A stretch of DNA of 64,000 nt, from the NCBI GenBank assembly GCA_030827135.1, contig JAURFE010000003.1, positions 200,923 to 264,922 of the forward strand. Direction: 5' to 3'. This document shows positions 224-58,156 of the stretch, in pieces. The notes beneath the pieces are model-generated. The model made no database searches, had not been told where the DNA came from, and saw nothing but the letters and a program-made list of their open reading frames with translations. A program made the translations under genes and the position numbers. The stretch comes from Vicinamibacterales bacterium. GTDB lineage: Bacteria; Acidobacteriota; Vicinamibacteria; Vicinamibacterales; SCN-69-37. Every line of letters begins with the position of its first letter. Position 1 is the stretch's first letter.

Positions 224-433
224 GTGAAGGTCAACAAAGGCGCGCGCGTGTCGCAACCAAAGTACGGCCCCGGCACGGTCACCGACTCTGACGGCACGCA
301 CGTCGTGATCGATTTCGACAACCACGGCCCCAAGCGGTTCGTGGCAGCCATGGTTTCGCTGGCTCCGACCACCGAACCGGCGCCGGAAAAAGCCAAGACG
401 AAGCGGCGGACGAAAAAGGTCGCGGCCGAGTAG
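224..433 (+). CDS. small basic protein, possible Tudor/SH3-like fold
   Basis: This predicted protein has 69 residues. The core reads KVNKGARVSQPKYGPGTV, then VVIDFDNHGPKRF. That resembles the small beta-barrel seen at the C-terminus of UvrD/PcrA helicases (V-x-H-x-x-F-G-x-G-x-V), which binds RNA polymerase or nucleic acid, but here it stands alone. A Lys/Arg-rich tail (KAKTKRRTKKVAAE) follows. An upstream in-frame ATG at 218 directly abuts the GGAGG (213-217), leaving no spacing. GTG 224 lies 6 nt after it and is the better start. Function is not known, and nucleic-acid binding is an inference from charge and fold resemblance. Confidence 0.7.
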   Translation: MKVNKGARVSQPKYGPGTVTDSDGTHVVIDFDNHGPKRFVAAMVSLAPTTEPAPEKAKTKRRTKKVAAE

Positions 434-452
434 TCCAGGGTTCGGAAACTTG

Positions 453-3523: not shown

Positions 3524-3570
3524 CGGGTGGGCGGGTGGGCGGGTGGGCGGATGGGCGGATGGGCAGATGG
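3524..3570. repeat. period-8 minisatellite (GGGTGGGC / GGATGGGC)
   Basis: Five near-perfect 8-nt units, (GC)GGGTGG three times then (GC)GGATGG twice, with a degenerate sixth (GCAGATGG). The array ends at the stop codon of the DUF4126 gene. It belongs to the same octamer family seen at 20055, 23411, 23711 and 33601. Confidence 0.85.
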
Positions 3571-14718: not shown

Positions 14719-14820
14719 AGGGCCCGCTGAACTGTAGCGGGCCAGCCCCTGGCGCGCTCAAGTTCAGCGCGCCCTACGCACGTCCAAGCGCGCCCTACGC
14801 ACGCCCGAACGCGCCCTACG
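14719..14820. repeat. cluster of palindromic elements and half-elements
   Basis: GGCCCGCT-GAACTGT-AGCGGGCC (14721-14743) is followed by GGCGCGCT-CAAGTTC-AGCGCGCC (14751-14773) plus CTACG. Two tandem right-half copies follow, AAGCGCGCCCTACGCACG and GAACGCGCCCTACG. The two intact copies carry different but self-complementary stems. Confidence 0.9.
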
Positions 14821-14839
14821 CCTGTCGGCAGTTTCCGTA

Positions 14840-20054: not shown

Positions 20055-20160
20055 GCAGGTGGGCAACTGGGCGGGTGACCCCATCCGCCCAGTTGCCCAG
20101 CCGCCCATCTACCCACCCACCCGCCCACCTACCCACCTACCCACCTGCCCACCTGCCCGG
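20055..20160. repeat. inverted period-8 minisatellite
   Basis: Octamer units of the GGGCGGAT/GGTGGGCA family run one way (20056-20078) and then in the complementary sense as ACCCACCT/GCCCACCT units up to 20160. About ten units can be counted. The two orientations meet in a 14-bp hairpin. Confidence 0.85.
20061..20098. terminator. 14-bp perfect hairpin built from octamer repeats
   Basis: GGGCAACTGGGCGG (20061-20074) pairs with CCGCCCAGTTGCCC (20085-20098) around a 10-nt loop, 7 nt after the symporter stop. No T-run follows. The same left arm occurs in the terminator at 33659. Confidence 0.6.
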
Positions 20161-23710: not shown

Positions 23711-23742
23711 TCCATCCGCCCATCCGCCCATCCGCCCACCAG
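23711..23742. repeat. period-8 minisatellite (CATCCGCC)
   Basis: CATCCGCC repeated three times, then CACCAGCC. It is the reverse-sense form of the GGCGGATG octamer. Confidence 0.85.
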
Positions 23743-23748
23743 CCCAGC

Positions 23749-33597: not shown

Positions 33598-33600
33598 CCG

Positions 33601-33660
33601 CTGGGCGGCTGCGCAGCTGAGTCGCTGGGCAGCTGGGTAGTTGGGTAACTGGGCGGATGG
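33601..33660. repeat. period-8 minisatellite (CTGGGCGG / TTGGGTAA)
   Basis: Units such as CTGGGCGG, CTGGGCAG, CTGGGTAG, TTGGGTAA, CTGGGCGG and ATGGGCAA run from the stop of the TonB receptor gene into its terminator. About seven units, two of them degenerate. Confidence 0.8.
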
Positions 33661-33704
33661 GCAACTGGGCGGTTTCGAACCGCTCAGTTGCCCATTTGCT
33701 TTTA
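33659..33704 (+). terminator. intrinsic terminator built from octamer repeats
   Basis: GGGCAACTGGGCGGTT (33659-33674) pairs with AACCGCTCAGTTGCCC (33678-33693), 16 bp with a single G-U pair and loop TCG. ATTTGCTTTT follows. It should terminate the TonB receptor transcript. The left arm repeats that of the hairpin at 20061. Confidence 0.85.
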
Positions 33705-34058: not shown

Positions 34059-34160
34059 GGGCGCGCTGGGTTTGAGCGCCGTATGTAGGGCGCGCTGGGT
34101 TTGAGCGCGCCGGGTGCGGCCCGCTGCAGTTCAGCGGGCCCTACGTACCGCAGCGGGCCC
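34059..34160. repeat. cluster of four palindromic elements
   Basis: In order: GGCGCGCT-GGGTTTG-AGCGC (right arm truncated, 34061-34080), GGCGCGCT-GGGTTTG-AGCGCGCC (34090-34112), GGCCCGCT-GCAGTTC-AGCGGGCC (34119-34141) and a right-half AGCGGGCC (34153-34160). Spacers CTACGTA or CGTATGTA separate them. Confidence 0.92.
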
Positions 34161-34179
34161 TGCGTACTGCAGTGAGCCG

Positions 34180-34191: not shown

Positions 34192-36003
34192 GTGCTCTCG
34201 TCCTCGCGCCGTGAACTGGCCATCGCCGTCCTGGCGGTGGTGGCGATGGCACTGCACCTCACACTGATTCCCGAGTGGCCGCTGTACGCGGCCCTGGGAC
34301 TTGGCGGCCTTCCGCTCGTCTTTGACCTCGGTCGCGGCCTGCTTCGAGGCAACTTCAGCTCCGACCTGCTCGCCGGCATCTCCATCGTCACATCCGTCAT
34401 CCTGGGCGAATACCTGGCCGGCACGTTGGTGGTGTTGATGTTGTCCGGCGGTCAGGCGCTGGAGTCCTACGCCGTTCGACGGGCATCGTCGGCGCTCTCG
34501 GCACTCGCCAAACGACTGCCCAACGTGGCCCACCGGAAGACAGGCGAACAGATTCCGCTCGAAGCGGTGCAACCCGGCGACGAACTGCTGGTCTTTCCTC
34601 ATCAGGCCTGCCCGGTGGACGGCGTCGTCATTGAAGGCCGCAGCACGATGGACGAGTCGTACCTCACAGGCGAGCCGTACCAATTGTCAAAGACGATTGG
34701 TGCGTCGGTACTGTCCGGTGCGGTGAACGGCGAGGGGCTTCTGACCATTCGAGCCGAGAAGCGGGCCGTGGATTCGCGATACGCGCGCATCATGCACGTC
34801 ATGCGGGAGTCGGAACAGCGACGCCCGACGCTGCGTCGATTGGGGGATCAACTGGGCGCGTACTACACGCCGGTCGCCATCACGATCGCAGCCGGCGCGT
34901 GGATCGCGACCGGCGACCCCGTGCGGTTCCTGGCCGTGCTCGTGGTCGCGACTCCGTGTCCGCTGTTGATTGCGATTCCCGTCGCGATCATCGGGTCCGT
35001 GTCGTTGGCGGCCCGCCGGGGCATCATCATCAAGGATCCGGCCGCGCTCGAGACGATCGACACGTGCCGCACTGCAATTTTCGACAAGACCGGCACCCTG
35101 ACGTACGGGCAACCGGAGGTGACCGAGATTCAGACATTGCCGGGATTTGCCGCACCCGACGTGCTCGCGGTGGTGGCCAGCCTCGAGCGGTATTCGCGGC
35201 ATCCACTCTCCGGCGCCATTCTCGCCAGAGCAAAGACTGACAACGTCGCACTTGTGGAGGCGCTGGAAGTCAGCGAGCGCCCCGGCCAGGGACTGACCGG
35301 ACGTATCGATGGCCGGTTCGTGCAGGTCACCAGTCGCAAAGCAGTCGCCGTGATGGACCCTGAAGGCGCGGCCGCGCTGCCGCCACTGGAAGGCGGGCTC
35401 GAGTGTGTGGCCGTGATCGACGGCAGGACTGCCGGCCTCATCCGCTTCCGTGATGAACCTCGCGCCGAGGGATTGTCGTTTGTCCGCCACCTCGGTCCGC
35501 AACATGGGTTCACGCGCGTGATGCTGGTATCCGGTGATCGCGACAGCGAGGTGCGCTACCTCGCGGAGAAGGTCGGCATCGCGGACGTGCTCGCAGGTCA
35601 GAGCCCTGAGCAGAAGCTGGCCCTCGTCCGCGCGGAAACGGCGAAGGCTCCGACCGTGTTCATGGGCGACGGCATCAACGACGCGCCCGCCCTGACCGCA
35701 GCCACGGTCGGGATTGCGTTCGGTCAGGCCAGCGACGTCACCGCCGAGGCCGCCGGCGTCGTCATCATGGACAGCTCGCTCGCACGCGTGGACGAACTGC
35801 TGCACATCGGCGCTCGTATGCGTCGCATCGCGCTCCAGAGCGCGGTGGGTGGAATGGCGCTGAGTATCGTCGGTATGGGGCTCGCAGCGGCCGGCTATCT
35901 GCCGCCGGTGACGGGCGCCATCGCGCAGGAATTGATCGATGTCTTTGCGGTGCTGAACGCGTTGCGCGCGTCAGTCAGACCGAGCACACTGACCGACATG
36001 TAG
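34192..36003 (+). CDS. P1B-type heavy-metal translocating ATPase
   Basis: This 603-residue protein starts at GTG 34192, because the upstream open frame runs through palindromic repeats. No N-terminal metal-binding domain is present. The actuator domain has [10 protein letters not shown], the membrane metal site is Thr254-Pro-Cys-Pro257, and the phosphorylation motif is Asp298 in [12 protein letters not shown]. The nucleotide domain keeps the His-Pro pair of P1B pumps ([11 protein letters not shown]), and the hinge is [24 protein letters not shown] rather than CPC site is seen in some P1B subgroups, so the metal (Zn, Cd, Co or other) is uncertain. The TAG stop is part of a palindromic element. 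Confidence 0.92.
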
Positions 36004-36108
36004 GGCGCGCTGCCACATGTAGGGCGCGCTGAATCTGAGCGCTGCTACATGTAGGGCGCGCTGAATTTGAGCGCGCCGTGAGTTGGCACGCTACAGTTCA
36101 GCGTGCCC
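36001..36108. repeat. cluster of palindromic elements including an A-T stem variant
   Basis: Left-half TAGGGCGCGCT (36001-36011), imperfect copy (36023-36045), intact GGCGCGCT-GAATTTG-AGCGCGCC (36055-36077), and GGCACGCT-ACAGTTC-AGCGTGCC (36085-36107). The last keeps perfect complementarity with an A-T pair at the variable position. The first TAG is the stop of the P1B ATPase gene. Confidence 0.92.
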
Positions 36109-54451: not shown

Positions 54452-54598
54452 CAGGCGAATGCATCAGTGTACACAGCCTTGTAAGCGGAAGGCGGATTCC
54501 GTCTGTGAGGCCTGGACACTCCATTCTGTAATCCTTTATTTATCAACAACTTGGAGCCACATTCGAGCGGTACCGCCCTTGCTCTGGTGAGGGGCCTG
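54452..54598. other. divergent promoter region of prfC and the minor pilin operon
   Basis: The 147-nt stretch includes a comparatively AT-rich part at 54525-54551 (CTGTAATCCTTTATTTATCA). TGGACA (54509-54514) with TTATTT downstream could be a weak sigma70 promoter, but I cannot choose a single site. Confidence 0.3.
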
Positions 54599-55195
54599 AT
54601 GACCAGACCTCTTCGTGACGCCGGTTTCTCTGCCGTTGAACTCCTCATTGCCGTGGCGATCATCGGCTCGATCGCCGCCATGACCGCGCCGATCTCGGGC
54701 AGCATGATTGAAGACATCAGGCTCCGGGGCGACGCACAGGGGCTTTCCAGCGCGGTGGCCCTGACCAAAATGACGGGCGCCGCCAAGTTCACCCGGGCAC
54801 GGCTCCGCATTGACCAGGCTGCCGGCACCTACCAGGTCGAGACCTGGCAGACGACAGGCACACCGGGCTGGATCATCGAAGGCGGCACCCAGCGGCTCTC
54901 AACCGGCGGCCAGTTCGGCGCCGGCCCCGTCACCTCCGCCCCCCCCAACAGTCAGGCCGTGTTCGGTCAGCCCACGGCGTGCCTCAACAACGAAGGCGAC
55001 GTGCTTTCAGGCACCTCGTGCGTCATCTTCAATTCCCGCGGTCTGCCGGTGACCGCCGCCGGCGGCCCGATCACGACACAGGTCGTGTACATGCGCGGTC
55101 CCACCGGCGTCTTCGCCATTGTTGTCGGCGCCACGGGCCAGATGCAGGTCTGGCGCACGACGCCGTCGGCGGGCGGCACATGGCGCCAGAAGTAA
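54599..55195 (+). CDS. FimT/GspH-like minor pseudopilin
   Basis: This 198-residue prepilin starts at ATG 54599 with GAGGGG 4 nt upstream. The type III signal is TRPLRDAG then cleavage before FSAVELLIAVAIIGSIAAMT, with Glu5 of the mature part in place. A C-terminal domain of the GspH/FimT beta type follows (LRIDQAAGTYQVETWQTTG). Such minor pilins prime type IV pilus or type II secretion pseudopilus assembly at the inner membrane. First gene of a four-gene operon. Confidence 0.88.
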   Translation: MTRPLRDAGFSAVELLIAVAIIGSIAAMTAPISGSMIEDIRLRGDAQGLSSAVALTKMTGAAKFTRARLRIDQAAGTYQVETWQTTGTPGWIIEGGTQRLSTGGQFGAGPVTSAPPNSQAVFGQPTACLNNEGDVLSGTSCVIFNSRGLPVTAAGGPITTQVVYMRGPTGVFAIVVGATGQMQVWRTTPSAGGTWRQK

Positions 55196-55698
55196 GCCTC
55201 CGCGTCGACGCGGGGTCTTCGCTCATCGAGACGATGGTCGCGACTGCACTCCTCCTTGTCGTCATTGGCGGCCTCGGCTCGATGGGTGTCGTCGGCCTGC
55301 TGTCGTCGGAGAACCAGGGACATCTCGCAGCCCGCACCACCGAGTACGCGCAGGACAAGATGGAACAGTTGCTGGTGCTCGCCTGGGGTGACGTCTCCAG
55401 CGACACCCGCGTCTTTCCCGCAGCGGCGGCAGGCGGTACGGGACTCGCCATCGGCGGCAGCGCCAATCCTGACGCGCCAGTGGCCGGCTACGCCGACTAC
55501 CTCGACAAGAGCGGCACCCTCATCTCCGTCGCGGGTGGAGGCGTCCCCTCCGGCTGGTTCTACAAACGCGTCTGGGTGGTGACGAGTCCACAGGCCAACC
55601 TCAAACAAATTGAAGTCACGGTTACCGTCGAGTCGAGTCTCGGGCGAACGGCGCCGCCTCGGTCGACGGTGACGGCGCTGAAGACCTTTCCCTTCTGA
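55180..55698 (+). CDS. PilV-like minor pilin
   Basis: This 172-residue prepilin starts at ATG 55180, overlapping the previous gene by 16 nt. The leader ends VSLRVDAG, with cleavage before SSLIETMVATALLLVVIGGL; Glu5 is kept and Ser replaces the usual Phe/Met at +1. MEQLLVLAWGDVSSDTRVF and a beta-rich C-terminal part follow. It belongs with the FimT, PilW and PilX-like proteins as part of the pilus-tip complex. Confidence 0.85.
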   Translation: MAPEVSLRVDAGSSLIETMVATALLLVVIGGLGSMGVVGLLSSENQGHLAARTTEYAQDKMEQLLVLAWGDVSSDTRVFPAAAAGGTGLAIGGSANPDAPVAGYADYLDKSGTLISVAGGGVPSGWFYKRVWVVTSPQANLKQIEVTVTVESSLGRTAPPRSTVTALKTFPF

Positions 55699-55703
55699 TA
55701 GCC

Positions 55704-56666
55704 ATGAAGTCCAGAAGTCCAAAGGTCCAGGGTCCAGAAGTCCGGAGGTCCAGAGGTCCAGGGGTCCTGGGGTCCGGTGAAGACGGCTTCTCCCTCCCGG
55801 AGTTGCTTGTCTCGATCATGGTCCTCAGCGTCGTGGTCGGCATCACGGCGCAGCTGCTGCTGCAGACAGTGAACGGGCAGCAGACGATGTGGAATCGGAC
55901 GCAGATGCATAGCAGCGTCCGCGGCGCGATTGAGTTGTTACAGCAGGAGGTCGGGCAAGCCGGCCTGGTGACACTGCCGGGGCCTGTGACGCTGACCGGC
56001 GCCGTGGCGATTGGCGCCCAAGTGGTCGCCGTCAGCTCAACAGCCGGCATGTTTGTCGGCGAACAACTGCTCATCGATACAGGGGCGATTCAGGAAACCG
56101 TGACGGTAACAGCGCTGGATGCAGGCGCCAATCAGATCACTGCCACATTCGCGCAAGCACATGCCGCCGGCGCACAGGTGTCGGTGGCTGGAGGATTTGC
56201 TCACGGCATTGTGCCCCCCTCGATCGCAAACGGTTCCACGGGTGGCGTGCTGAAACTGTTCGGCGACGTCAATGGTAACGGGCAGATGGTCTACGTCGAG
56301 TACATCTGCGACACGGCAAGCAACCGTTTGTCGCGCAACATGATGGCGTGGGATGCGACCACAAAGCCGGCGTTGACGCCCTCGATGATCCTGCTGAGCA
56401 ACGTCGTCGCCAATCCAGGCGGATCGCCGTGCTTCAGCTATCAGACCGAAGTGGTGTCCGGCACAACGTACGTGACGGCGGTCGCGATCACGTTGAGTGT
56501 GCAGACGCAGGAAATTGATCCCGTGTCCCGCGTGTTCCAGATTGAAACCAAGACGCTGCTGAACGTCTCGCCCCGCAACGTCTTTTACACATGGCAAATG
56601 GCCTCCATGCAGGAGACCAATCGGATTCAGCCGATGCCCGCCAGCATCCTGGCACTACTGCCATGA
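55704..56666 (+). CDS. PilW-like minor pilin with a repeat-encoded leader
   Basis: This 320-residue prepilin starts at ATG 55704, 5 nt after the preceding TGA. The leader of about 28 residues (KSRSPKVQGPEVRRSRGPG, then VLGSGEDG) is encoded by nine octamer repeats. Cleavage is expected before FSLPELLVSIMVLSVVVGIT, with Glu5 present. The mature domain is typical of PilW (QTVNGQQTMWNR, RGAIELLQQEVGQAGLV). There is no in-frame ATG, GTG or TTG between the repeat and the cleavage site, so the repeat must be translated. The stop overlaps the next ATG (ATGA). Confidence 0.88.
   Translation: MKSRSPKVQGPEVRRSRGPGVLGSGEDGFSLPELLVSIMVLSVVVGITAQLLLQTVNGQQTMWNRTQMHSSVRGAIELLQQEVGQAGLVTLPGPVTLTGAVAIGAQVVAVSSTAGMFVGEQLLIDTGAIQETVTVTALDAGANQITATFAQAHAAGAQVSVAGGFAHGIVPPSIANGSTGGVLKLFGDVNGNGQMVYVEYICDTASNRLSRNMMAWDATTKPALTPSMILLSNVVANPGGSPCFSYQTEVVSGTTYVTAVAITLSVQTQEIDPVSRVFQIETKTLLNVSPRNVFYTWQMASMQETNRIQPMPASILALLP
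55707..55777. repeat. period-8 minisatellite inside the pilW-like coding region
   Basis: Units: AAGTCCAG, AAGTCCAA, AGGTCCAG, GGTCCAG (7 nt), AAGTCCGG, AGGTCCAG, AGGTCCAG, GGGTCCTG, GGGTCCGG. The period is not a multiple of three, so loss or gain of one unit shifts the frame. Confidence 0.9.
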
Positions 56667-58156
56667 CGACGCACCGGTCACCTGATCGTCCCACAAACGA
56701 CGAAGGCATCGCCCTTGTACTGGCGTTGCTGTTCATGCTGGCGTTCTCGTCGCTCGGTGCGGCGGTCATGGTGCTCTCGCGCACGGAGACATTTTCGAGT
56801 CTCAACTACCGGATGATGTCGCAGGCCAGGTACGGCGCGGAGTCCGGGGTGCACAAGGCCGCGCACTTTCTGCTGAACTCCTATGCGTTGCCGGGCACGG
56901 GCGGAGACCCGCTCTCAAACTACAACACCACCGTCTCGCCGGTGACGTATCTCGACCAACCGGTGGTGTTGTCGGCGATCACGAACGTGACGGCCAACTA
57001 TCCAGTCGCTGGTGTTCAGACCGCGTTCGCGGCAGCGGGTCAGGGCGCGCTGCCTGCGGGCCAGACAACGGTGCTGTACACGTCGAGCGCCACGCTGCTC
57101 TCGATGCGTGAGGTCGTGCCCTACGGCGCGAACACGCCAACGATTGTGCAGACGTGGCGTCTCACCGCACGGGGGCGATTGACCGGCGCCAGGAACGCCG
57201 AGGTCGAGGTCTCGGCGATCCTGGAACGCCAGGTGGTGCCGGCGCACACGTATGCGGCCTTCGCGACCAATCCCGGGTGCGGTGCGCTGACTTTCTCCGG
57301 CGGAGTCGGCACCGACAGCTACGACTCATCGAACATGGTCCTCGCAGGTGGCGCGCCGGTCACCGACGCTCTCTCCGGCCACGTCGGCACCAACGGCAAC
57401 CTGACCGAGGGGGGCGGATCGGTGATCAATGGATCCCTGTCCACGCCGCGCACAGGAGTCGGCAACTGCAATGCCGGCGCTGTGACCGCGCTGACTCTGC
57501 AGGGCAATGCACAGGTCACGGGTGGCATCACGGCACTGCCGCAGGCTGTGCAGTATTCGCTGCCTGATCCGCCCTCACCGCTGCCGCCGACCACGAGCGT
57601 CACATTAAACGGCACCAGTCTGTGCGGCACGCTTGCGCTGACCACTGGGACATGCGCAGGAACTGCGGGCAATCTCACCGTCGATCCGGTGGGCACGCCG
57701 ATGGCGCTTGGCAACGTCAAGGTCACCGGCGGAGCTACGCTCACGCTCCACGCGGGCACCTACAACATCAACAGCCTGCAACTGACGGGCGATTCCACGC
57801 TGGCGATTGCCTCCGGGCCCGTCATTCTCAACGTGGCCGGCGCCTCGGAGACCACGCCGATTGACTTTGAGGGTGGGGCGACCGCAAACGAGACGTTCGA
57901 TCCGTCGATGTTCCGGATTCACTACGCCGGCACCGCCACACTCAAACTGACGGGTGGCACCACCACCGCGGCGATCGTGTATGCACCACTCGCCTCAGCC
58001 ACCGTCGCCGGCGGTGCCGACTTCTACGGATCGATACTCGCCGCCGCCGTCTCCGTCACCGGCGGCGCGCAGTTGCACTACGACCGCCGCCTCAGCCGCG
58101 ACTTCTTCATCGTCGGCCCCCAGATGATGAGCGGTTTTACGTGGCGGGCGCAGTAG
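56663..58156 (+). CDS. PilX-like pilus assembly protein with large extracellular domain
   Basis: This 497-residue protein starts at ATG 56663 in ATGA overlap with the previous stop. The N-terminal segment DEGIALVLALLFMLAFSSLG is the usual PilX anchor without a canonical prepilin Glu5. It is followed by SRTETFSSLNYRMMSQARYG as in PilX. From about 210 onwards the protein is Gly/Thr-rich and repetitive (NGSLSTPRTGVGN, LTLQGNAQVTGG, VKVTGGATLTLHAGTYN) and ends TVAGGADFYGSILAAAVSVT. The C-terminal part resembles the DUF7305 beta-helix-like region. It may act as a tip adhesin, which is an inference. Confidence 0.85.
   Translation: MTTHRSPDRPTNDEGIALVLALLFMLAFSSLGAAVMVLSRTETFSSLNYRMMSQARYGAESGVHKAAHFLLNSYALPGTGGDPLSNYNTTVSPVTYLDQPVVLSAITNVTANYPVAGVQTAFAAAGQGALPAGQTTVLYTSSATLLSMREVVPYGANTPTIVQTWRLTARGRLTGARNAEVEVSAILERQVVPAHTYAAFATNPGCGALTFSGGVGTDSYDSSNMVLAGGAPVTDALSGHVGTNGNLTEGGGSVINGSLSTPRTGVGNCNAGAVTALTLQGNAQVTGGITALPQAVQYSLPDPPSPLPPTTSVTLNGTSLCGTLALTTGTCAGTAGNLTVDPVGTPMALGNVKVTGGATLTLHAGTYNINSLQLTGDSTLAIASGPVILNVAGASETTPIDFEGGATANETFDPSMFRIHYAGTATLKLTGGTTTAAIVYAPLASATVAGGADFYGSILAAAVSVTGGAQLHYDRRLSRDFFIVGPQMMSGFTWRAQ

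Follow-up and report, generated by a model that had tools for sequence, protein, structure and literature searches.

The pilin cassette and its leader array

The stretch of DNA analysed here (the window, 64,000 nucleotides) carries a cassette of minor-pilin-like genes whose third member, encoding a PilW-like pilin, begins with a run of GTCC-type octamers. The cassette comprises the following features:

54551..55195, + strand: pseudopilin/minor pilin gene, first of the cassette (open reading frame with a prepilin N-methylation motif; start uncertain)
55180..55698, + strand: PilV-like minor pilin gene (reading frame and gene call; weak N_methyl match); its TGA stop at 55696-55698 is the anchor of the octamer array
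55704..56666, + strand: PilW-like minor pilin gene, 320 aa with a 28-aa leader (open reading frame; ten orthologues)
55704..55706, + strand: start codon (ATG) of the PilW-like gene, 5 nt after the TGA of the PilV-like gene
55709..55779, + strand: octamer array of nine GTCC-type units, in frame and forming most of the prepilin leader
55785..55790, + strand: predicted prepilin peptidase cleavage site G28^F29 (GFSLPE), from the orthologue alignment and the N_methyl/GFxxxE models
56663..58156, + strand: PilX-like gene (PilX_N and DUF7305), its start overlapping the pilin stop (ATGA)

The first gene product matches Pfam N_methyl slightly below the cut-off (E 3.5e-4) and NCBIfam IV_pilin_GFxxxE above it, and the PilW-like protein scores at the Pfam N_methyl cut-off and above that of NCBIfam TIGR02532. 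The latter protein also combines the hallmarks of a type IV prepilin, namely the G^F junction, Glu at +5 and a hydrophobic helix (GFSLPELL). No PilW model in Pfam or NCBIfam matched the product of 55704..56666; its location ahead of the PilX_N gene fits PilW. The 28-aa leader (MKSRSPKVQGPEVRRSRGPGVLGSGEDG) ends with the G28 codon at 55785-55787, and cleavage is predicted before the F29 codon at 55788.

Between ATG 55704 and this site the pilin frame is kept throughout the array. Units 1-5 read GTCCAGAA GTCCAAAG GTCCAGG GTCCAGAA GTCCGGAG and units 6-9 read GTCCAGAG GTCCAGGG GTCCTGGG GTCCGGTG, so that eight units are 8 nt long and the third is 7 nt long; Tandem Repeats Finder reports a period of 8, 8.5 copies and a score of 78. 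The original prediction had described nine units, one of them of 7 nt, and both the sequence and Tandem Repeats Finder place this array at 55709-55779. It had further proposed that no alternative start follows the array, that the start of the PilX-like gene overlaps the pilin, and that one unit more or less destroys the frame. All three proposals hold: reading the sequence between ATG 55704 and the cleavage site revealed no in-frame ATG, GTG or TTG, the ATG at 56663 runs into the pilin stop codon at 56664-56666 (TGA), and in silico the pilin of 320 aa is reduced to 22 aa when one 8-nt unit is removed, while the frame ends at 58 aa when one is added.

No Shine-Dalgarno-like sequence was seen for ATG 55704, and the PilW-like pilin is probably translationally coupled to the upstream gene. 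Ten pilin orthologues occur in relatives (52-74% identity, the 74% being that of a congener); the PilV-like C-terminus LKTFPF* is conserved upstream of them, and the GFSLPELL-type cleavage motif is conserved across all ten in the alignment. Their start codons lie, in all ten cases, between an ATGA overlap and about 20 nt past the stop of the upstream gene. Because the orthologues start at the same place relative to the upstream gene, ATG 55704 is supported as the predicted translation start. The octamer array is absent from all ten orthologues and their operons, and their leaders measure 9-23 aa, compared to 28 aa here. Since the array follows the ancestral start, the leader has grown to 28 aa, and the array was most likely gained in the lineage of this bacterium. 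This supports its presumed youth, the 74%-identity congener included among the genomes without it. One common age for the insertions was considered as well, but G004, the closest congener, yields no match to the pilin from which to date it.

A dispersed octamer family and its placement behind stop codons

Searched with up to two mismatches, a two-unit pattern of the repeat has 91 matches in the 3.24-Mb genome and none for the reversed control; hence, the pilin-leader repeat is not a product of chance. Counts of the three-unit purine form are 118 in this genome, 0-9 in each of six congeners and mostly 0 in other families of the order, where it is nearly absent; one genome was compared per species. 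GTCCAGRR thus shows the many copies of one unit and the restricted taxonomic range of a dispersed short tandem repeat. About 50 arrays are present in this genome, and we mapped 50 from fetched surrounding stretches using a simple, home-made gene finder based on codon usage. Within arrays, conservation reaches 95-100% at unit positions 1-6 (GTCCAG), whereas the final two (7 and 8) are variable, mostly A or G. The near-invariant core with an A/G-variable end in interior units is a pattern unexpected from random decay alone.

The arrays are associated with many unrelated genes, not with surface genes in particular, and their placement is of the STRR/heptamer kind: 38 of the 50 mapped arrays are intergenic, and the 5' end lies no more than 10 nt from the stop codon of a same-strand gene in 25 of 50, the mirror arrangement being found for six. 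The other 25 do not adjoin a stop codon. Random placement in non-coding DNA gave a mean of 2.9 and a maximum of 10 such arrays (500 trials), compared to the 25 observed; when arrays were placed uniformly inside the same intergenic regions, the mean was 7.0 against 22 observed, and none of 5000 trials reached that number. Random flipping of array strands gave p = 0.0008. With its start 10 nt past the PilV-like stop, the pilin-leader array conforms to this rule.

Three further ideas about the arrays were tried and set aside. A preference for TAG stops (11/25 vs 30% background) was not significant (p = 0.09). Hairpins behind 7/25 stop-adjacent arrays, vs 54/358 stops overall, were too few to make the array part of a terminator; a hairpin with a T-run lies behind 3/25 stop-adjacent arrays and 8/358 of all stops. 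A G-quadruplex as the shared function was likewise rejected, the canonical G3 motif occurring in 9/50 arrays and not in the pilin-leader array. Independently of these tests, we observed hairpin-capable pairs of oppositely oriented GTCC arrays within one intergenic region (L093:4064-4144, L070:4256-4318 and L063:8831-8942), as well as a GTCC array followed by its short complement, also hairpin-capable, at L120 in genome G005; L063 and L120 are corresponding sites in two species, both with arrays.

Three further groups of repeats lie elsewhere in the window:

431..448, + strand: GTCCAGRR remnant (about 1.5 units) that immediately follows the TAG stop of gene 218-433 and precedes an intrinsic terminator
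3524-3570, 20080-20158, 23712-23746, 33600-33672: arrays of TGGGCRRN or its complement
14766-14821, 34060-34172, 35996-36076: GTAG-tagged palindromes

TGGGCRRN constitutes a second octamer family, with 68 three-unit matches genome-wide and one for the reversed control. Of its 36 mapped arrays, nine start at a stop codon on the same strand, where 2000 null trials gave a mean of 1.8 and at most 7, and others lie just upstream of opposite-strand start codons. The GTAG-tagged palindromes (GTAGGGCGCGCTG...AGCGCGCC) resemble the GTAG REP superfamily (PMC3733652) and are also found behind GTCC arrays at L064, L068, L083 and L087, several of them directly adjoining. The GTCCAGRR unit itself carries neither the GTAG tag nor the short palindrome of that superfamily.

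Arrays within reading frames and their turnover between congeners

All six frames of the common octamer units are free of stop codons, and translation of arrays as leaders or within genes is therefore possible. Three further leader arrays follow directly after a start codon in tight gene pairs (L076, L089 and L097). We take their genes, named from reading the sequence without model searches, to be glutamine-amidotransferase/PuuD-like (L076), a substrate-binding protein with a signal peptide (L089) and DUF2400-like (L097). Together with the pilin, all four leader arrays are in frame, and in-gene arrays occupy tolerant segments with the frame intact, such as E2 acyltransferase linkers (L102, L107) and a C-terminal tail (L096); these observations are to be read with the bias of the gene finder, which favours open frames, so that gene-breaking arrays could count as intergenic and inflate the impression that arrays are always in frame. 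The two linker arrays (L102:4030-4078 and L107:4003-4067) lie in two different E2 dihydrolipoamide acyltransferase-like genes, each time in frame behind the lipoyl domain.

Comparison with congeners indicates a slow turnover of GTCCAGRR arrays across species, as seen in the assembled genomes. In G004, the starts of L097 and L089 carry no octamer, and the L076 start has about 1.5 units (GTCCCAGGTCCG) compared to six in this genome. Conversely, the site behind gene 218-433 holds four units in G004 (L113), between the stop and the same terminator, vs the remnant here, and L095 and L123 set a clean nine-unit array against a decayed one. Length differences at the same site between close relatives were thus found at few sites (434/L113, L095/L123, L076/L162).

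Known parallels of the repeat and the probable origin of the long leader

The closest parallels are the G-rich heptamers described by Rehm et al. (2015), GGGAATC in Xanthomonas and GGGGA(C/T)T in Nostoc/Anabaena, for which phase variation was judged unlikely and function left open (PMC4692102). Like these, GTCCAGRR forms dispersed short-unit arrays that are mostly intergenic, favour the coding-strand zone behind stops, accompany genes of all classes and vary in length between close relatives (PMC4692102). Unlike them, its unit is 8 nt instead of 7 and of another sequence, its host belongs to the Acidobacteriota, most of its arrays lack a canonical G-quadruplex motif, and several are read in frame as N-termini or linkers. 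Hence, GTCCAGRR belongs to the broad kind of dispersed short tandem repeats and not to the strict G4-heptamer family, which is made of heptamers with a canonical G-quadruplex and usually four units. The TAACTGA heptamers of Beggiatoaceae, cyanobacteria and Bacteroidetes are similarly dispersed, mostly intergenic, strand-biased and phylogenetically patchy, but their clusters lie shortly before start codons, and stops in all three forward frames make them untranslatable (PMC4679880), whereas GTCCAGRR is stop-free. Borg tandem repeats also occur between and inside genes and add linker-like peptides without breaking frames; however, the units found within genes are perfect there and have lengths divisible by three (PMC9879509), while the 8-nt units of GTCCAGRR keep the frame via total length only.

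We consider it quite probable that the pilin tract is a copy of the dispersed, nearly genus-restricted GTCCAGRR repeat, translated as a longer leader. The octamer would have multiplied within this acidobacterial species, and an array would have been placed at the usual site, 10 nt behind the PilV-like stop. Because that stop and the start codon of the pilin lie so close together (5 nt), the array falls just past the latter, and because the octamer is stop-free and the assembled length is in frame, it is translated as leader. The result would be a longer, hydrophilic and basic prepilin leader of 28 aa, which is presumably tolerated and should be cut off by the prepilin peptidase, so that the mature pilin would stay the same; the array itself would change slowly instead of switching fast.

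The original prediction had suggested that the array could give phase variation. Read as a dedicated device, it would be a contingency locus at which slipped-strand mispairing toggles the PilW-like pilin within a population, together with the coupled PilX-like gene. Some properties do suit this reading: the unit length is not a multiple of three, so that a unit change shifts the reading frame, which then ends after 22 or 58 codons; the product is a surface structure; GTCCAGRR arrays differ in length between congeners; and octamer/heptamer SSRs are candidate mediators of phase variation in Haemophilus influenzae, whose phase-variable genes likewise carry a non-triplet unit at the 5' end of a surface-structure gene (PMC2651432). 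However, the H. influenzae tracts are defined as direct perfect repeats (PMC2651432), whereas the pilin-leader array, seen in one assembly, is heterogeneous, being among the least uniform arrays of the genome. It lacks the near-perfect, slippable tandem units of a contingency locus: every unit differs from its neighbours, and when the array is compared with itself at an 8-nt shift, the longest exact match spans 9 nt (rank 35/50), as against 48, 39, 37 and 31 nt for the purest arrays (e.g., G000:C2:6321-6380). Because of this heterogeneity, rapid slippage is unlikely in what appears from its sequence to be a weak slippage substrate. Moreover, the octamer is dispersed genome-wide, behind the stops of unrelated genes and in housekeeping-enzyme linkers, without favouring surface genes, all four leader arrays are on-frame, and the 2015 study of similar heptamers thought phase variation unlikely (PMC4692102). 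A contingency locus is therefore improbable, and the claim of a dedicated device is not supported; since arrays do change between species, the pilin may nevertheless switch as a by-product of the array.

The array might instead be regulatory for the upstream gene, its purine-rich sense RNA tract affecting termination, transcript ends or coupling, which would make the location in the pilin leader a side effect. The strong stop-codon and strand bias of the arrays speaks for this, as do the congeners that keep the same site, with differing sequence, between a stop and an intrinsic terminator, and the Xanthomonas heptamers, which occupy the same place and, where G4-capable, coincide more often with transcript ends (PMC4692102). 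Yet a canonical G3 quadruplex motif is restricted to 9/50 arrays, the pilin-leader array excluded, a terminator-like hairpin with a T-run follows only 3/25 stop-adjacent arrays, and none of the ten orthologous operons carries the array; we thus hold a regulatory role to be unlikely, if somewhat less so than a contingency locus. Least probable of all is a translation start elsewhere (e.g., at the non-standard CTG 55767), with the array serving as an untranslated spacer. Such a start would agree with codon-usage scoring, which puts the coding signal only from about 55818, and with a GGAGGT stretch inside the array, but ATG 55704 sits where orthologues start, the frame is open through the array, and no in-frame ATG, GTG or TTG precedes the cleavage site.

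As a translated copy of a dispersed repeat, the pilin leader turns what appeared to be a single phase-variable gene into one case of a genome-wide repeat family, and shows a stop-free repeat turning into coding sequence in a tight operon. Non-triplet repeats at gene starts are hence not necessarily switches. The GTCCAGRR family has a sharp, testable rule, according to which the array start coincides with a same-strand stop codon, and since neither the phylum nor the unit is related to the published heptamer cases in which this stop and strand bias is also seen, a common cause is worth testing. We speculate, with considerable reserve, that at least two unrelated octamer families were seeded or spread by a stop-codon-directed, strand-tied process at gene 3' ends. 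If so, a so far undescribed repeat-spreading mechanism would be tied to the stop codon, to the end of the transcript or to the termination of translation; a stop-free repeat would then keep supplying genes with novel N-terminal leaders and linkers, of which the pilin leader would be an example.
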